Source: a virus. Taken from it: a stretch of DNA of 21,426 bases. A model generated the notes under the pieces. That model was not told the origin of the DNA. It searched no databases and was given only the letters and a program-made list of their open reading frames with translations. The stretch covers positions 1-21,426 of IMG/VR virus record IMGVR_UViG_3300021964_000659; one strand, written 5' to 3'. Positions within the stretch are counted from its first letter, which is position 1; every line of letters starts with the position of its first letter. A program made the position numbers and the translations under genes. Positions 3,393 to 11,688 of the stretch are shown here, piece after piece.

Positions 3393-4702
3393 TTAAATCC
3401 CGTTTTCTTACCAAATGAATCTCTAACCAGAGCGAGTCTTGTAAAAGTTTCTCTTGGAGTAACTCTGTGACATACACTTGCTACCATATATATACCCCCT
3501 GTCTGTGGGTTTTTCTCTTTAACTCTATCTCCAGTAACCTCAGGGAAATCACATTGAATAATGTCACCTGCTTTAATACTAAAATCTGCTGCAATAGTCA
3601 CATTTGTTTTAACAGTAAACATTTGATTATATCTCATCACAGACTGTGCCATTGTGTTCTCGGCATCATAATTTGGAGAAGTTGAATTCTTCTTCCATTG
3701 TTCTAACTGTTCGTTACCTGTCCCATCAGGCATAGCACCAACATCAAATACATGACTCATCAATCTTGTTGGAGTTTCGGTAAATTCTTTTGCAACTAAG
3801 TCACCACCAAAGTATTTTCCTGCTTTACCAATGTTGTCAGGGTTGTACTTGAATTCTTTAACATAATAATCCATAGAGAATGGATTAAAGTAGATTGCTC
3901 TACTATTATATGTTCCAAGAGTGAGATTTTGTTTGAGGTCTATGTCACTATCAATAGAATAGTCAAGTATATTCCCATCATATCCCACTGGAGGTTCTCC
4001 AGTATTATTGAACATATATTTTTTGACTGGTTCTTCTTCAAATATTTTATCAATAGACCTAAAGTTGAATCCGTCTCTGGTTTGATAAAAAAGAAACCCA
4101 GCTCTTGACCCTACATCTTTATCTGGTACTGCCTTAGATGCTAGCCAAGTACAGGTATAAAATGGTTTTCTATCATTCCCTATGAAATTATAAGTGAGTG
4201 AGGTGTTATCTACTTGTTCAATTTTTACATCACCAAGAGAATTAAGTATTTCCTTTACATGATCAGATATTTTTCCTTCATATCTTTTTATTACTCTTTG
4301 TTGTTCATTTGCAAAATATTCCTTTGATGCAAAATCAACAAAGAATACATCCTTTGATGTACCAGAGTCAGTATCTCTTACTCTATTGACATACAAACCT
4401 TTCATTGGTTTGAATGTAAGTTTGTTTTCATTATTATCTTCAATGACTATATCAGTTCTCTCCCCACCTCTGATTGGTAAAGCATCTAACACACCTTTCG
4501 ATGATTTAATCGCACCACCATCTGATTCATAACCACTATCAACAATAACTGCTGTTGCTGTGACATTATTTGATAAGACACTCTCGTAGTATCTAAATTC
4601 AACTACACCACCAGATAAGTCAATCGCTTTGTCAGACTGATTTGATGATATTTTGAACTTCTGAATATTACCAGGAGATGTTGGAGCGTTTTGTGATGGC
4701 AT
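3389..4702 (-). CDS. gp27: gp27-like baseplate hub protein
   Basis: 437 aa. In phages of this type the protein between the tape-measure-type genes and the gp5-type hub gene forms the gp27/gpD ring connecting tube and spike. Features that fit are the N-terminal beta region, the mid-part FVDFASKEYFANEQQRVIKR, and the C-terminal strand block ITIAADFSIKAGDIIQCDFPE followed by GGIYMVASVCHRVTPRETFT, which resembles the second tube-like domain of such hub proteins. Assignment rests on these segments plus synteny with T4 (26-51-27), since gp27 is poorly conserved. The ATG forms TAATG with the upstream stop, and its own stop overlaps the next start as ATGA, so hub subunits are probably made in linked amounts. 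A generic tail structural protein is the alternative. Confidence 0.6.
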   Translation of the reverse strand: MPSQNAPTSPGNIQKFKISSNQSDKAIDLSGGVVEFRYYESVLSNNVTATAVIVDSGYESDGGAIKSSKGVLDALPIRGGERTDIVIEDNNENKLTFKPMKGLYVNRVRDTDSGTSKDVFFVDFASKEYFANEQQRVIKRYEGKISDHVKEILNSLGDVKIEQVDNTSLTYNFIGNDRKPFYTCTWLASKAVPDKDVGSRAGFLFYQTRDGFNFRSIDKIFEEEPVKKYMFNNTGEPPVGYDGNILDYSIDSDIDLKQNLTLGTYNSRAIYFNPFSMDYYVKEFKYNPDNIGKAGKYFGGDLVAKEFTETPTRLMSHVFDVGAMPDGTGNEQLEQWKKNSTSPNYDAENTMAQSVMRYNQMFTVKTNVTIAADFSIKAGDIIQCDFPEVTGDRVKEKNPQTGGIYMVASVCHRVTPRETFTRLALVRDSFGKKTGFK

Positions 4703-7700
4703 TATCCTTGTTTATATAAGAATCCCATAAGTTGAGATTTATAATAACTATTTAATACCTCTTTTGTAGAAGGACCTCCCATCATAGGAACTCCTCCACC
4801 ACCTCCTCCACCAGGAGTTGTTTGGGATGGTATTGGGAATGGAGTTATTCCGCCACCCTGTGAATAACCAGATTCATATGGAGCACGTCTATCAATACCA
4901 TTTCTTGATTGTGAAGCGGTTTGTTGTGGAGATAAATTTATACTCTGTCCATGTGCCTGACCCACTGGACCAGCAGAATTCAAAATCAGGTGACCAACAT
5001 ATGGTGAAGGATTTCCCATTCCACCATATCTGGTACCATCTTTCTTATTATCAACCTCAAAGTGTAAATGTGGTCCAGTAGAACTACCTCTACCTCTATC
5101 ACCACTTGCTCCACCAGTTTGACCAAGAGGAACACCAGCAGGTATCCTTTGTCCTTTTCTTACAAGTATTTTATTTAAGTGTGCAAGTCTAAATTGTAAT
5201 CCTAATGATGGTGCCCATGCATCAACAACATTTCCGTAACCGTGTCCTGGTGCTCTTCCATGCAATCCTGCAAACACAATTTCAACTTCAACATCCAATG
5301 CAACATATGTTCCCTCTGGTGTTCCAATATCAATACCTCCATGTAGTCTTCCCCATCTTTGACCATATCCAGATGTAACTGGGAAACCACTTACTTTTTG
5401 ACCTTTTTGTGCACCAGTAGTTGCACCTTTCCTTTGTATCATACCAGATACATTTTGTCCTATACTTGCAAGTTGAGCTTGTTGAGCAGATGGTGATGAC
5501 GGAGTGATATTACTAATCATCTGAGATACTTTAGCATAATCTGCACCATCTTTAGCAGTAGCTGACTGACCACCTCTGATGAGTGCTGCATTACTATCAC
5601 CAACTACAATGTCTGGTTTATACTTATTCTTGATTGCTCTGGCACTTGATGGTGTCAAATGAACATAATTACCCAATAAATCGATAGGCGCATAAACACC
5701 ATAGTCAATCCTACAACCCATCTCTGCTGCAGCTGTAGTTACACCCTGATATGGGGCTGTAATAACCACACTACCTTTAGGATTATTCTTAACAACCAGT
5801 TTATCTGATGGGGGTACAACGATAACAGTATAACCCTTGTCCATCAATCCTTTGATAAGTTTTTTGGTCGCGGATACGATGTAAGATTTGTTCCTACCCC
5901 ATTCATTGGTACCATATGCCAAGACAGCAATTTTTTGTTGAGCACTACCAGTCTGTTGTGTTATTGTATTAAAATTAGGAGCATTTCCACTAACTGTTCC
6001 TGTGTAATTCCAATCCCAACCAAAATAATTATTTGGCGCACCAGATTGTCTTATGATTTCTCCCTTTCTCTGATTTCTATATCCTCCACTATAGTTTGTA
6101 AAATCAGTTCTACCACCCAAAAAGTCTTTTGCATTCTTCATTAATGTGGGGTTATTAATAACCGCTGCAGTCTTTTCAACTTCTGATGTATTTTTCCATC
6201 CTGCAGCAAGTGCTGCCGATTGAGCATCAACAATATTATACCACTCATCATTGGGTTTACCGTATCCATTTTTTGATCCGTTTGGATAATCCCAAGTGGG
6301 TTGAAATTGTGTTTGTCCAAGAATCAAATCTCTTATATTTTTAGAACTATATGCTCCAGACGCAGCTCTATTATAAAGTGCTTGAACAACATCCGCCCTT
6401 CCTTGATCGTCACCATCCTCTCTTGATGCAATAGCAGCAAGAGTCCAAAAGTCTGAACCTCCTCCAGAAGTTGTTGATGTTGGTGTTGTAACTGTTCCCG
6501 TAGTTCCAGTGGTTCCATTGGTTCCAGATTGGTCTAGATACCCTAATCCCGAAACTATTAATGGCTGACCTGTTGCTGGATCTATCCAAGGTTCTTCCTC
6601 AAGCATTTGTCGCCAGTAAGGCAAATTACTATATTTTCTTTTTGCTGGAACGGGTGGTATTGAACTAAATTTTTTCTTGATAAGTTCATACAGTGCTTTA
6701 CCACCCCAATCACCAATCATACCACCAAGAATGGCGCCTGCTGCTGTCCCTGCAAATGGAAATACTAATGAACCAATACCACCACCGATCCAAGCACCAA
6801 TACCACCACCGACTGCACCTACTACAGCTCTGTCAAGTGGTTCACCAAGTAACATATCAATAAAGATACTGAGAAGACCACCAACAACAGGAACTCTTTT
6901 AAATATATTGCCAATCTTTAAAATACGCTTACCACCTGTTCCAAACAAATTTTTTGCAGTTTGTTTAGATGCCTGTTGTGTTGCTCTATTGGTTGCAGTT
7001 TTTGATGCCGATCGTGATGCTTGTGTAGCAACAGTTCGTCGTCCACCCCCTCTCAGACCCTGTGCAGCACCACTTGCTCCAGCAGAGGCAGCACCACCAG
7101 TAAACTTGGATGTAACATTTTTTATAAAATTAACAAGACCAGAACCTAAACCACCAAATAATCTTTTAGCCTTAGGTACCACCTTTTTCATCAAACTCTT
7201 AAGGCCTGAACCAGCCTTCTTCATTCCTTTCCAAGCGGTATTGAAGATCCCCTTTATAGGACCACCAAAAACACTTGTAATACCAAGTATAACACTCTTT
7301 AATAATTTAAATGGATTGTTAAAATTTTGAGATAAAGTGCTAATTACATTCTCAATTTTATCGTAATTATTGAGAAGAAATAATACTAAACCACCTAGAG
7401 CAATATTCGTTAAAAAATCAAAGATATTGAAATTTTTACCTATAGTTTTTCCTACACCAAGTAATGATGAACCACCTCTTTTCCTTTCTAATTTATCTTC
7501 TTTTTTTCTAGCTTTTTCTTTTTTGTTTTTATTTTTAATTGCCTTGTTTAATTCTTTTTTTGATTTTTTTTCACTCTCAGAAACTTTGACTAACGTCTGT
7601 GCTGTCTTATCAATTTTTTCAAGTTGTTTACTAAGAGATTCAAAAGATACTTTACCAGTTGATTTTGTAGGTGATGAACTTTCCGAGGATTTTTTATATA

Positions 7701-7938
7701 CAGATTTGGGAAGTTTTACAGAAGATACTTTCTTAGCACTAGGTCTGGATTTTGTTTTTTCAGATACCTTTCTACCAATACTTTCAACTTTATTTTTAGA
7801 ACTATATTTTGATTTACCTTTGACAAACTTCTTTGCTGCACCAGAAACAGCTCTCTTAGCTCCTCCTGATACTGCACTTCTGGTGGCACCCTTTGCTATA
7901 CCACCCATCAATCCTCTTGCTAATAATGGGAGTACCAT
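4702..7938 (-). CDS. Large tail protein with glycine zipper, SleB-like, SGNH-like and M23 peptidase domains
   Basis: 1078 aa. Residues 1-165 are very basic with a charged coiled coil; hydrophobic stretches follow at 172-235, then a Gly-zipper segment at about 370-412 (GAVGGGIGAWIGGGIGSLVF). Residues 496-645 resemble SleB/Hydrolase_2 wall hydrolases (ASREDGDDQG with candidate Glu507, then QALYNRAASG and QFQPTWD). Residues 669-808 carry SGNH-type motifs in permuted order: YGTNEW (Asn678), YVHLTP (His760), VVGDSNA (Ser782). Residues 851-985 are an M23/LytM zinc endopeptidase: HGGID (His866, Asp870), LAH (His920), HLHFEV (His957, His959). A Gly-rich tail ends the protein. Start at 7938 has AGGA 6 nt upstream, overlapping the upstream stop. 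Likely tail-tip or tape-measure-like protein that opens the peptidoglycan during infection. Confidence 0.8.
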   Translation of the reverse strand: MVLPLLARGLMGGIAKGATRSAVSGGAKRAVSGAAKKFVKGKSKYSSKNKVESIGRKVSEKTKSRPSAKKVSSVKLPKSVYKKSSESSSPTKSTGKVSFESLSKQLEKIDKTAQTLVKVSESEKKSKKELNKAIKNKNKKEKARKKEDKLERKRGGSSLLGVGKTIGKNFNIFDFLTNIALGGLVLFLLNNYDKIENVISTLSQNFNNPFKLLKSVILGITSVFGGPIKGIFNTAWKGMKKAGSGLKSLMKKVVPKAKRLFGGLGSGLVNFIKNVTSKFTGGAASAGASGAAQGLRGGGRRTVATQASRSASKTATNRATQQASKQTAKNLFGTGGKRILKIGNIFKRVPVVGGLLSIFIDMLLGEPLDRAVVGAVGGGIGAWIGGGIGSLVFPFAGTAAGAILGGMIGDWGGKALYELIKKKFSSIPPVPAKRKYSNLPYWRQMLEEEPWIDPATGQPLIVSGLGYLDQSGTNGTTGTTGTVTTPTSTTSGGGSDFWTLAAIASREDGDDQGRADVVQALYNRAASGAYSSKNIRDLILGQTQFQPTWDYPNGSKNGYGKPNDEWYNIVDAQSAALAAGWKNTSEVEKTAAVINNPTLMKNAKDFLGGRTDFTNYSGGYRNQRKGEIIRQSGAPNNYFGWDWNYTGTVSGNAPNFNTITQQTGSAQQKIAVLAYGTNEWGRNKSYIVSATKKLIKGLMDKGYTVIVVPPSDKLVVKNNPKGSVVITAPYQGVTTAAAEMGCRIDYGVYAPIDLLGNYVHLTPSSARAIKNKYKPDIVVGDSNAALIRGGQSATAKDGADYAKVSQMISNITPSSPSAQQAQLASIGQNVSGMIQRKGATTGAQKGQKVSGFPVTSGYGQRWGRLHGGIDIGTPEGTYVALDVEVEIVFAGLHGRAPGHGYGNVVDAWAPSLGLQFRLAHLNKILVRKGQRIPAGVPLGQTGGASGDRGRGSSTGPHLHFEVDNKKDGTRYGGMGNPSPYVGHLILNSAGPVGQAHGQSINLSPQQTASQSRNGIDRRAPYESGYSQGGGITPFPIPSQTTPGGGGGGGVPMMGGPSTKEVLNSYYKSQLMGFLYKQG

Positions 7939-7941
7939 ATC

Positions 7942-10290
7942 TTATCCTACTATATTATAGATTGATTTGACAACAATGAGATCAAAATTACTTGAGTCTT
8001 CAGCAGAAAATCCTGGAATTTGTTTTTGTGCCGCACTTGCAGCACTATTTACCTGACCTTGTTGTCCTACTGGAACTGGTAACACTGCTGCACCACCTCC
8101 TTGTGATGGCGGTGGACTAATTCTTACATCTACTACTTGTCTTGATACTTGTGCTTGTTGTGGTGATGTACCACCAGGTTGTAAATTCAAACCTCTTGAG
8201 AGAGATTCCTCAAGTGGTTTGGTCAAGGCGTCAAGTTGTTGATTACTTAAACCAGGTCCTCTTAACACCAAATCCTGAAGTAGTGGTGACATATTACCGA
8301 GTTCGATCAAACTAATACCTCTATTTGTTCCAGCTAGACCACCTCTATGTGTTTTACTAAATGCTCCAGCTGTTCTTGCAAAGTCAGCCTCTACGGGGTT
8401 AATAGCATCAGTACCTGGCATGGGTGGAATGACACCACGTCCAGTTCCATAGCCAGACTCTAGTGACGCATCCATGTGGATTTCAATGACTTCATAACCT
8501 TGTTTCTCCAATGTCTTAAGTTTATTTTGTTGTTCTATAAATCCTGCATCAGTGTTAGGTGTTTGATCATGCATGTCTAACAATCTAACAGGAATACTTT
8601 GTCCATATTTAGCCTTTAAGTTTTCAACAGTTCTCCTTGCAAGATCTCTTACTAATTCCATTTCACCAGGAGCTCCAGCTCCAGCAGCGTGACCAGGAAC
8701 AACAATATAACCTTTAGATCCTGCACCACTTCCCAAACCGAAATCTCTAATTGGTGCTGATCCTTGGCCACCAAGACTAACCTGGCCACCACCTTGGAAA
8801 CCTTGAATCTTTCCAAACTTAGGTTTGTTATTTCCACCAGCCATAGCATTTGCTGCCAGAAGATTACCAGCACCAAACATGTCAACAGCCTTTTTACTCA
8901 TCATAATTTCACCAGGTTGAGCAGCAATCAACTGAGTGTCCTTGCCCATACCTTTGATTTGAAGACCAGTCAATTTGTCAATGGCACCACCATCAAAGAG
9001 TGAAAGATTTTTGACATCTATAACCTGACCACCACCTTCTTGTTGTTGTATCCAATTTGGATATTGAATATTTGGAATATTTGGAAGTGCGACTTTAGGT
9101 ATTCTTGGTAGTTTTGGTGTTGGAATACCAGGAAGAACCTTTGCTAATTGTTTAAGAGCCCATTCTATCTCATTAAATGCTGTATTCCATAGACCAATAT
9201 ATGCATTGATAGGTGCAAATACTATATCATTGATAAATTTAATAATCTTGTCATTAATAAAGTCGATTATAAAATTACCAAAGTCAATTAAGGGTTTTAA
9301 ATACTTACCTGGATTTTGAATGATATCAAGAATAAGATTAATAGCTCCACCCAGTAAAACATTCTTAAAGAAGTTTATTATACTATCAAATATATTAGAA
9401 GCTGGTTTTAAAGTTTTTGAAACCTTTTCTGCGCTTTTCTTTTCAGTATCTTCAAGTTTTGCCTCTTTCTTTCTGAATCCCTCAGTCTCTTCCTTCTTAG
9501 TAGCTTCTCTTGCTGCTTGTTTTTCAAGTTCAAGTTTTTGTCGTTCAATTTTTAGAAGTTTATCTAAATTACTATTAATATCGTCTAATGTTTTAGACAA
9601 TGGCAATAATTGTTCTTGAGTATCTTCTTGAATCTCAACCTTTACATTTTCTGGACTACTGGTTTGACCAGCAGATGGTAAAAGTTTTGTGGCCTTAACA
9701 CTTTTAGGTTTTGGTTTTTGTCTTGGTCTTTTACTTACAAAATTTGAAGTTCTTGCCTTTCTTTTATTTTTATTAGCCTGTACTTTAAATGAACCTGATT
9801 GTGTTCTTGCTCTTTTAAATTCATTTTTTAATAATTCATTATCACCCTCTTCTTCTTCTCCCTTTCCACCTCCCATTCTATCGGCAGCCATCTTCTCTTT
9901 CAGAAGACGTTTATAATCCTCATAATCTAATTCTGCTTCATAATCTTCTAAACCAAGAAGTTTTAATATTCTTGGGTCAATATTCTCAGTTTGAGTTTCT
10001 TTTTTATTACCATTTTTTATTTTTTTGATTGCATTATCAACTGCCTTCTTTGACTCTCTCTGTTTCTTTTTCTTTTCTTGTTCGTCTTTCTTTCTTGATT
10101 TCTCTAATTCTTTAAGTAAATTATCTACATTTAAAAAATCGTCTTCTTTTTCTTCTTCATCTCTAATTGCGTTAATAAGAGCGTCAAGTTGATCAGATAC
10201 TTTTCCACCAGAAGCCTTCTTCAACTGTTCGACTTGTCTATCGACAGCTGACTTCTTGTCGGATTTTGACCTTCTGATCCTTTTAGCCAT
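7942..10290 (-). CDS. Tape-measure-like tail protein with amidase_3-type domain
   Basis: 782 aa. Residues 1-295 are highly charged Lys/Glu-rich, predicted coiled coil. Residues 299-385 contain hydrophobic helices starting NIFDSIINFFKNVLLGG, similar to NIFDFLTNIALGG in the neighbouring 1078-aa protein. Residues 432-502 carry a Gly-rich stretch with LIAAQPGEIMMSKKAVDMFG, of a kind I associate with tape-measure and internal tail proteins. Residues about 526-690 show the four zinc/catalytic positions of an N-acetylmuramoyl-L-alanine amidase (amidase_3 type): VPGH (His534), Glu543/545, EIHMDAS (His605) and LIELGNMS (Glu663). A Pro/Gln-rich tail follows. AAGG lies 7 nt before the ATG, which overlaps the stop of the small upstream frame. 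Its place right after gp26 and the frameshift frame is the usual tape-measure position. Role inferred: tail-length or ejected wall-degrading protein. Confidence 0.75.
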   Translation of the reverse strand: MAKRIRRSKSDKKSAVDRQVEQLKKASGGKVSDQLDALINAIRDEEEKEDDFLNVDNLLKELEKSRKKDEQEKKKKQRESKKAVDNAIKKIKNGNKKETQTENIDPRILKLLGLEDYEAELDYEDYKRLLKEKMAADRMGGGKGEEEEGDNELLKNEFKRARTQSGSFKVQANKNKRKARTSNFVSKRPRQKPKPKSVKATKLLPSAGQTSSPENVKVEIQEDTQEQLLPLSKTLDDINSNLDKLLKIERQKLELEKQAAREATKKEETEGFRKKEAKLEDTEKKSAEKVSKTLKPASNIFDSIINFFKNVLLGGAINLILDIIQNPGKYLKPLIDFGNFIIDFINDKIIKFINDIVFAPINAYIGLWNTAFNEIEWALKQLAKVLPGIPTPKLPRIPKVALPNIPNIQYPNWIQQQEGGGQVIDVKNLSLFDGGAIDKLTGLQIKGMGKDTQLIAAQPGEIMMSKKAVDMFGAGNLLAANAMAGGNNKPKFGKIQGFQGGGQVSLGGQGSAPIRDFGLGSGAGSKGYIVVPGHAAGAGAPGEMELVRDLARRTVENLKAKYGQSIPVRLLDMHDQTPNTDAGFIEQQNKLKTLEKQGYEVIEIHMDASLESGYGTGRGVIPPMPGTDAINPVEADFARTAGAFSKTHRGGLAGTNRGISLIELGNMSPLLQDLVLRGPGLSNQQLDALTKPLEESLSRGLNLQPGGTSPQQAQVSRQVVDVRISPPPSQGGGAAVLPVPVGQQGQVNSAASAAQKQIPGFSAEDSSNFDLIVVKSIYNIVG

Positions 10291-10450
10291 TTCGTGCCTT
10301 CATCTTTTGCTCTTCATCCTCTAAATGTTCTTGAAGTAAAGCAACATAGATGTCTCGTTCCCAAGGCATCATATTTTCAATCTCTGTCAAAGAATATTTA
10401 TGGTATTGCATCAAGGCAAAATTTAACCTGAAATAATTTTCAAGGTCCAT
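10283..10450 (-). CDS. 55-aa gp51-position protein, probable -1 frameshift extension of gp26
   Basis: 55 aa, ATG at 10450, starting MDLENYFRLN and containing LTEIENMMPWERDIYVALL, then an acidic/basic helical end. It is a genuine frame: it fills the gap between gp26 and the 782-aa gene exactly, with its stop overlapping the next start. It lies in the -1 frame relative to gp26 and that frame is open from the gp26 slippery site through to this stop, so it may be made mainly as the end of a 298-aa gp26 fusion (237 + 6 + 55 residues). In many tailed phages a short MPW-containing second reading frame just before the tape measure gene is the T part of the G/GT tail assembly chaperone. T4 has gene 51, a baseplate hub assembly factor, at this place; I do not claim sequence homology to it. 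Confidence 0.75.
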   Translation of the reverse strand: MDLENYFRLNFALMQYHKYSLTEIENMMPWERDIYVALLQEHLEDEEQKMKARNG

Positions 10451-10474
10451 ATGGACCAGGCCTATCCGAAAAAA
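10444..10474 (-). promoter_or_regulatory. Candidate programmed -1 ribosomal frameshift site (T TTT TTC plus hairpin)
   Basis: Near the gp26 stop the zero-frame codons are AGT TTT TTC GGA TAG, giving the perfect X XXY YYZ heptamer T TTT TTC at 10474-10468. After a 10-nt spacer comes a GC-rich hairpin GGTCC-ATAT-GGACC (10457-10444). The -1 frame reads CGG ATA GGC CTG GTC CAT ATG without a stop and enters the 55-aa frame. The ATG of that frame sits in the loop and stem of the hairpin, which would hinder independent initiation. Seen directly: heptamer, hairpin and open frame. Frameshifting itself is inferred. Confidence 0.65.
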
Positions 10475-11178
10475 CTTGATAACCCTTCCAGTACTACTGT
10501 ACTTGTTACTTTTGTGACAGGATTTTTTACTTCGAGAGTATGAGAAAGTTTTGGCATTGTTTCAAAGAATTTCTCAATGTCTTTGAATTGATTTGAACTC
10601 ATCTGTTCAAGAAATTCAACTACCTCTTTCTTACTCACATCATCAGTAGACCATACCTCTTCTTCATTATAAATCTTATCAATACAAGTAGCAATCAATT
10701 CAAAAGATCTATCAATACTCTTATCATCAAAATCAAAATTATTCCTAATAAATTGATCAAGTGATGGATACTTCATTTCCATCATCAAATTATCATCAAG
10801 TTTAATCTGTTTGTCATGTTCTTCATTTTCAACAACCTTGATATCTTCAAGATCGATCTTTACAGTGATTGATGTTTCACCATCATCTGGCGCAATGATG
10901 CTCACTTCAACTTCTTCACCAACAGACTTACCTCTAATATTAAGAAACAGATATTCAATATCAAAGGTCGGAAGTTCCTCAACTTTAATACCTCTAGTAG
11001 AGATACAATTTTTAATAACAGTTTTAATCGCAGTTGTGATTTGTTTAGTGTCCTCACTTTCAAGGGCAAGAACAAGAAGTTTTTCTTCTTTAACTAAAAA
11101 AGGTCTGAATTTAATTTTCTGTTTAGTGGATGGCAACTCAAGTTCATATGTTGGAGTAGCAATCTTTGGTAAAGGCAT
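10462..11178 (-). CDS. gp26: gp26-like baseplate hub assembly protein
   Basis: 238 aa, starting MPLPKIATPTYELELPSTKQKIKFRPFLVKEEK, which is the typical opening of the T4 gp26 baseplate family. The protein is mostly alpha/beta with an acidic middle (EVEVSIIAPDDGETSITVKIDLED) and a helical C-terminal half ending LEGLSSFFG. T4 gp26 is 208 aa and is needed for baseplate hub assembly. Its position and the slippery sequence at its 3' end suggest that the protein also acts as the G part of a tail assembly chaperone pair. A TATAAATA-like late promoter box lies 27 nt before its ATG, overlapping the gp4 stop, so it probably starts its own late transcript as well as being read from gp4. Confidence 0.8.
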   Translation of the reverse strand: MPLPKIATPTYELELPSTKQKIKFRPFLVKEEKLLVLALESEDTKQITTAIKTVIKNCISTRGIKVEELPTFDIEYLFLNIRGKSVGEEVEVSIIAPDDGETSITVKIDLEDIKVVENEEHDKQIKLDDNLMMEMKYPSLDQFIRNNFDFDDKSIDRSFELIATCIDKIYNEEEVWSTDDVSKKEVVEFLEQMSSNQFKDIEKFFETMPKLSHTLEVKNPVTKVTSTVVLEGLSSFFG

Positions 11179-11205: not shown

Positions 11206-11212
11206 TATTTAG
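11206..11212 (-). promoter_or_regulatory. Candidate T4-type late promoter box for gp26
   Basis: Minus-strand CTAAATA, 27 nt before the gp26 ATG and overlapping the gp4 stop codon. It is one or two bases from the T4 late element TATAAATA and matches the box before gp4 in both sequence and spacing. Late promoters of this type have no -35 element. Confidence 0.4.
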
Positions 11213-11688
11213 TTACGTTTTTTACGTTTCTTTGGTGGGGTAATTCCAAGATCATGTTCTGTCAAAACTTTGAATTGAATTCCATTATCTTTTGCAAAGT
11301 CTGATGCAGCTTCCCACTTTGCTTGATTGACTGCATATGTCGTACATTCATTTATATAAGACTTAGTAACTCTTGAAGGTTTCTTTGGCTCCACACATTG
11401 TTTTGCTGGTTTAATCTCAATAATATATCGACACACTCTTCCGTCCTGATGTCTTATCTGAACAATACCATCGGGATAATATCTGTGAACTCTTTTATCA
11501 ACTGGACTAACATAAGGTATTGAAAATTCTTCAGATGCATATTTTAAAACTGCATCATTTCTGTCACACCACTTGAGAAAATGTAGTTCCCAACTACTTC
11601 GATAAACAATATTTCTTGCATCCCCCATATATTTTTCAGGATGCTGTGGGTGAAACCTACCTTGATGGTACTTCGAACCTCTGGGCAT
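11209..11688 (-). CDS. gp4: gp4-like head completion protein, PD-(D/E)XK nuclease fold
   Basis: 159 aa. Very characteristic of T4 gp4 (also called gp50/4): YMGDARNIVYRSSWELHFLKWCD, then IPYVSPVDKRVHRYYPDGIV and YIIEIKPAKQ, VTKSYINE and NQAKWEAASDFAKDNGIQFKVLTEHDLGI. The fold is that of TnsA-like nucleases; candidate active residues are Glu34, Asp73, Glu91 and Lys93, all present. In T4 it is required to finish the packaged head before tail joining. It ends in a basic tail (PPKKRKKRN). It is the first gene of the minus-strand structural operon, divergent from gp54 with only 35 nt between them. Confidence 0.88.
   Translation of the reverse strand: MPRGSKYHQGRFHPQHPEKYMGDARNIVYRSSWELHFLKWCDRNDAVLKYASEEFSIPYVSPVDKRVHRYYPDGIVQIRHQDGRVCRYIIEIKPAKQCVEPKKPSRVTKSYINECTTYAVNQAKWEAASDFAKDNGIQFKVLTEHDLGITPPKKRKKRN

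Follow-up and report, generated by a model that had tools for sequence, protein, structure and literature searches.

The junction between gene 26 and gp51 raises the question whether gp51 is made as a protein of its own or as the tail of a longer form of gp26. The window, by which we mean the whole stretch of DNA analysed, is a 21,426-base fragment of a T4-like cyanophage, and its nearest named match is Synechococcus phage S-H68 (Kyanoviridae). From conservation, reading frames, folding excess and homology, gp26 and gp26-gp51 are very probably a G/GT (TAC-N/TAC-NC) pair that is made by −1 frameshifting at T TTT TTC.

Layout of the gene 26/gp51 junction

The 3' end of gene 26 reads TTA TCA AGT TTT TTC GGA TAG on the minus strand of the window. 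The junction is composed of the following features.

11178..10462, minus strand: gene 26 (TAC-N, 'G'-like), 238 aa plus TAG stop
10483..10489, minus strand: Shine-Dalgarno-like GGAAGGG (Glu-Gly codons GAA GGG), 8 nt before the heptamer
10474..10468, minus strand: slippery heptamer T TTT TTC, in frame with gene 26
10468..10283, minus strand: −1 frame (TAC-C, 'T'-like extension), RIGLVH plus the 55-aa gp51 frame
10467..10458, minus strand: spacer GGATAGGCCT from heptamer to stem-loop, 10 nt
10462..10464, minus strand: zero-frame stop TAG of gene 26
10457..10444, minus strand: stem-loop GGTCC-ATAT-GGACC, starting 10 nt past the heptamer
10283..10450, minus strand: gp51 ORF of the annotated type, with its ATG at 10450..10448

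The sequence-only reading saw a perfect −1 slippery heptamer closing gene 26, and this is what the minus strand shows (AGT TTT TTC GGA TAG), with the heptamer in the X XXY YYZ phase that is right for a −1 slip. From the last heptamer base, the −1 frame runs R I G L V H M D L E ... and is open until the stop at 10285..10283. The claim of a frame open through all 55 codons, giving a 298-aa fusion, agrees with both coordinates and length, the virtual gp26-gp51 fusion being composed of 237 + 6 + 55 = 298 aa. Its junction peptide would be SSFF-R(I/V), predicted for the window as ...LSSFFR or IGLVHMDLENYFR. The hairpin, formed by the palindrome GGTCCATATGGACC, is likewise present where it had been placed, and folds on its own with −7.1 kcal/mol.

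T6C alone is nothing unusual in this AT-rich window, which holds 10 such sites against 12.5 ± 3.5 expected; the signal is its conservation. No tRNA gene was found in the window.

Conservation of the heptamer and its surroundings

Loci of relatives were fetched through gp26 peptides outside the junction and were therefore not picked for the heptamer. The set comprises close IMG/VR relatives together with relatives of S-PM2, Melnitz, KVP40, Mendera and pf16. It holds 332 junctions, 243 of them distinct over 150 nt, from which 85 divergent clusters were defined at below 80% identity. T TTT TTC is kept in 80/80 close IMG/VR relatives, and an in-frame T TTT TTN is found in 241 of the 243 distinct gp26/gp51 junctions, the two exceptions being Vibrio phage D492 and one Stenotrophomonas record. 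The record of Stenotrophomonas phage IME-SM1 has one T fewer than a near-identical sister (~2250-2256), which breaks the heptamer and sends gene 26 into the third frame; the missing T is possibly a homopolymer sequencing error.

The codon before the slippery pair is always NNT (AGT, TCT, GAT, AAT, GGT, GCT or ACT) and the first slippery codon is always TTT (85/85 clusters each), while the second is TTC, TTT, TTA or TTG. The log10 P of the NNT TTT pattern, calculated from gp26 codon usage, is about −31; this treats the clusters as independent, although they are not entirely so. All 226 distinct T6 junctions have an open and homologous −1 frame, and complete extensions have 56-68 aa. The zero-frame stop varies between TAG, TAA and TGA and stands 0, 1, 2 or 8 codons past the heptamer among the 85 clusters. 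Conserved heptamer and −1 frame next to a varying zero-frame stop is the pattern that the sequence-only reading had expected in relatives. In a marine group including Pelagibacter phage Mosig, gp26 is about 8 zero-frame codons longer past the heptamer and the −1 frame is the same.

Upstream of the heptamer, a purine-rich Shine-Dalgarno-like core lies within 22 nt in 81/85 clusters, compared to a background of 20%, and nearly always ends 7-11 nt before the heptamer. Compared to the rest of gp26, codon choice at this site favours GAG over GAA (odds ratio 3.7, p 6e-7) and GGA/GGG over GGT/GGC (odds ratio 4.1, p 4e-9). The site overlaps a conserved Glu-Gly, which is R/K-G in T-evens, phages that do not frameshift. 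Part of the signal is therefore protein constraint, as the dipeptide itself is conserved. In the window, 32 nt separate the element from the gp51 ATG, a distance too great for a role in gp51 initiation. Judged from sequence, we propose that GGAAGGG is an internal frameshift stimulator.

Downstream, the 47 nt past the site of the window have only a slight folding advantage over shuffles (z −1.0, for this single sequence). A folding scan of the 85 clusters in 45-nt segments from −150 to +150 around the heptamer shows a clear excess in one segment, directly past the heptamer, with mean z −1.56 and half below −1.5. The other segments have mean z of −0.9 to +0.2, apart from the +150 segment with an artefactual mean and a median of 0.28. 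In the group of the window, the 5-bp hairpin covaries (GTC with GAC, ATC with GAT, GTT with AAC), with a permutation p below 0.0002 at two pairs from which relatedness is not removed. S-PM2 and P-SSM2 have strong stems of other sequence at the equal place. An internal Shine-Dalgarno element and a stem-loop on either side of a slippery heptamer is the three-part layout of E. coli dnaX, conserved here as sequence. The dnaX signal differs in its heptamer, A AAA AAG, and in a shift that gives the shorter product.

Probable chaperone identity and the two genes of T4

The gp26 protein belongs to Pfam T4_baseplate PF12322 (E 1.5e-73) and to phrog_150. The 55-aa frame belongs to phrog_634 (E 5e-27) and has a second match at the C-terminus of phrog_150, a profile of 282 positions that already includes the gp51 extension. 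In the ACG-2014j record, gp51 is unannotated though the −1 frame is conserved; gene callers missed it as there is no usable start codon near the junction.

A sequence search of the gp26 profile against the PDB returned nothing credible, and Foldseek with the AlphaFold2 model of gp26 (pLDDT 87) gave no PDB match at E below 0.001; VIA-align alone separated the chaperones. Its best PDB matches for the model are HK97 gp13 2ob9 (Z 7.8), 3fgx (7.8), YqbN 3klu (7.3) and 5ir0 (4.9), and the first unrelated row follows at 2.2. The chaperone matches have moderate Z and are confined to residues 1-96. As modelled, gp26 would have its best match, at this moderate Z, in the solved HK97-type tail assembly chaperones.

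The junction is flanked by gp4 upstream and by two large tail proteins (782 aa and 1078 aa) downstream. The adjoining 782-aa gene has no tape measure match; the 1078-aa gene next to it matches the tape measure family phrog_167 (E 1e-18). The 1078-aa protein rather than the adjoining one may be the real tape measure. It is encoded at window positions 4702-7938 (minus strand) and combines an M23 peptidase domain with the weak tape measure match. A tape measure duplication is not supported, as the two proteins are only marginally similar. The gp4-like head closure protein (window 11209-11688, minus strand) matches the TnsA-like endonuclease N-terminal family PF08722 (E 2.8e-22).

In T4 and other T-evens, gene 51 is separate, divergently oriented and codes for about 249 aa. 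With hhalign, the virtual cyanophage fusion and the T-even gp51 profile can be aligned over their full length, junction included (E 1.7e-19); against gp26 alone E is 2.4e-11, and the reversed control gives 0.11. The end of T4 gene 26 is without a T6 run, and T-evens code the conserved Phe-Phe as TTC TTC or TTC TTT. We infer that T-evens carry the short and the long form as two genes.

The T6 site is kept in KVP40, K571, Mendera, S-CRM01, phiN3, Mosig, PX29, Aeromonas 65, phiWae14, V45v66, pf16 and XG4, and the T6 signal extends to Vibrio, Stenotrophomonas, Aeromonas, Variovorax, Sinorhizobium and Pelagibacter phages. The T6 site is absent from four Ackermannviridae or Ackermannviridae-like phages (May, CRW-SP2, D492 and 1.244), which keep a gp51-like −1 frame. 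Three of them have a TAATG stop/start overlap, and Klebsiella phage May has no ATG there.

Frameshifting compared with other readings and known systems

The ATG of the window, 11 nt past the gene 26 stop, could start gp51 separately, and most cyanophage records annotate gp51 as a separate gene. Both would suit a 55-aa protein made only on its own, by re-initiation or translational coupling. Across the 85 clusters, however, the −1 frame has no ATG ahead of the conserved Y-Y/F motif in 40, and no ATG, GTG or TTG in 28. A Shine-Dalgarno core precedes a near gp51 ATG in 4/122 cases, compared to 133/226 for gene 26 itself. Independent gp51 initiation can therefore not be the general route, and as it also leaves the T TTT TTN conservation and the natural fusion of T4 unexplained, we regard a solely separate gp51 as very unlikely. 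The sequence-only reading had argued for frameshifting from a gp51 start buried in the hairpin. This holds in part: one base of the ATG lies in the stem, but two lie in the tetraloop, so that it is not fully buried. As an argument it is weak, since the position is a methionine in only 26/85 clusters. The 28 clusters without any start are, on sequence grounds, the better argument and replace it.

A T run could also cause slippage of RNA polymerase and thus a mixture of mRNAs, and some relatives have 7-8 T in the run. Transcriptional slippage usually needs longer runs than the mere six T, with a C after them, that most clusters have. The X XXY YYZ phase, the Shine-Dalgarno-like element and the stem-loop are features of ribosomal frameshifting, and slippage at the level of transcription appears extremely improbable. 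The heptamer might finally be fixed by the protein sequence Ser-Phe-Phe alone and have no role, given that Phe-Phe is conserved in T-even gp26 too. Yet NNT TTT TTN is found in all 85 clusters with the gp51 overlap, even with Leu as the second residue, whereas the T-evens use other Phe codons, and the codon-usage probability given above, with the same treatment of clusters as independent, speaks against protein constraint. We give this explanation practically no weight.

For frameshifting at T TTT TTC, the following mechanism can be proposed. The gp26 protein would act as the short form of a tail assembly chaperone (TAC-N, as gpG in lambda). By analogy to lambda and to published T4-like work, a minority of the ribosomes would slip one base back at the heptamer, with tRNA-Phe at both codons, and would read on through the gp51 frame to give the 298-aa long form (TAC-NC, as gpGT in lambda). 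Ribosome pausing, and with it the ratio of the two forms, probably depends on GGAAGGG 8 nt upstream and on the stem-loop about 10 nt downstream. On the same analogy, the short form is expected to cover the tape measure protein and the gp51 tail to bring in tube or hub subunits.

The likeness to a G/GT chaperone arrangement that the sequence-only reading had drawn is borne out by the kept heptamer, the open −1 frame, the downstream folding, the natural fusion in T4 and the chaperone folds. Shared with lambda G/GT (Levin 1993; Xu 2004) are a short chaperone, a −1 slip close to where the first frame ends, a C-terminally extended long form and the position upstream of tail genes. In contrast to lambda, the heptamer is T TTT TTC instead of G GGA AAG, the chaperone is larger (238 aa) and the phage has a contractile tail. 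Closest are the T4-like TAC genes: gp26 falls in PF12322, and T4 gp51 is a homologue of the gp26-gp51 fusion.

The abstract of a 2022 study by Vladimirov and colleagues reportedly states that frameshifting is retained in several T4-like groups and that the genes used by T4 are 26 and 51. To our knowledge, that study does not name the contig of the window. It reportedly identifies genes of the same protein families as the tail assembly chaperones of T4-like phages (Vladimirov, Gautam & Davidson, Virology 2022, doi 10.1016/j.virol.2021.11.003). Two papers cite it, one for a short gene and a long fused gene in some T4-like phages (the PRFect paper, PMC10885494), the other for TAC-N genes of T4-like phages with poly-T slippery sites (the phage Adele paper, PMC12846349). 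Going by these papers, the arrangement was already described in 2022, and the earlier view that it is not established for T4-like phages has to be given up. An open literature search found no paper on gp26/gp51 frameshifting in cyanophages. The frameshift in the window is well supported and of a kind already known; the statistics on the Shine-Dalgarno-like element and the stem-loop possibly add to the published picture.

Beyond that, we lean towards a scenario in which cyanophages and the other T6-keeping T4-like groups share a dnaX-like three-part element, made up of an internal Shine-Dalgarno under selection, the heptamer and a stem-loop conserved in position and free in sequence. T-evens would have replaced this element by a gene duplication that gave 26 as the short copy and 51 as the long copy with a permanent fusion, losing the heptamer. 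Frameshifting explains gp51 as the tail of the longer chaperone, where the usual annotation gives a 55-aa 'baseplate hub assembly catalyst' as a gene of its own or misses it, and so corrects the gene model of hundreds of marine phage genomes. Set against T4, with its two genes for the same two products, the transition from frameshift to duplication becomes directly testable.
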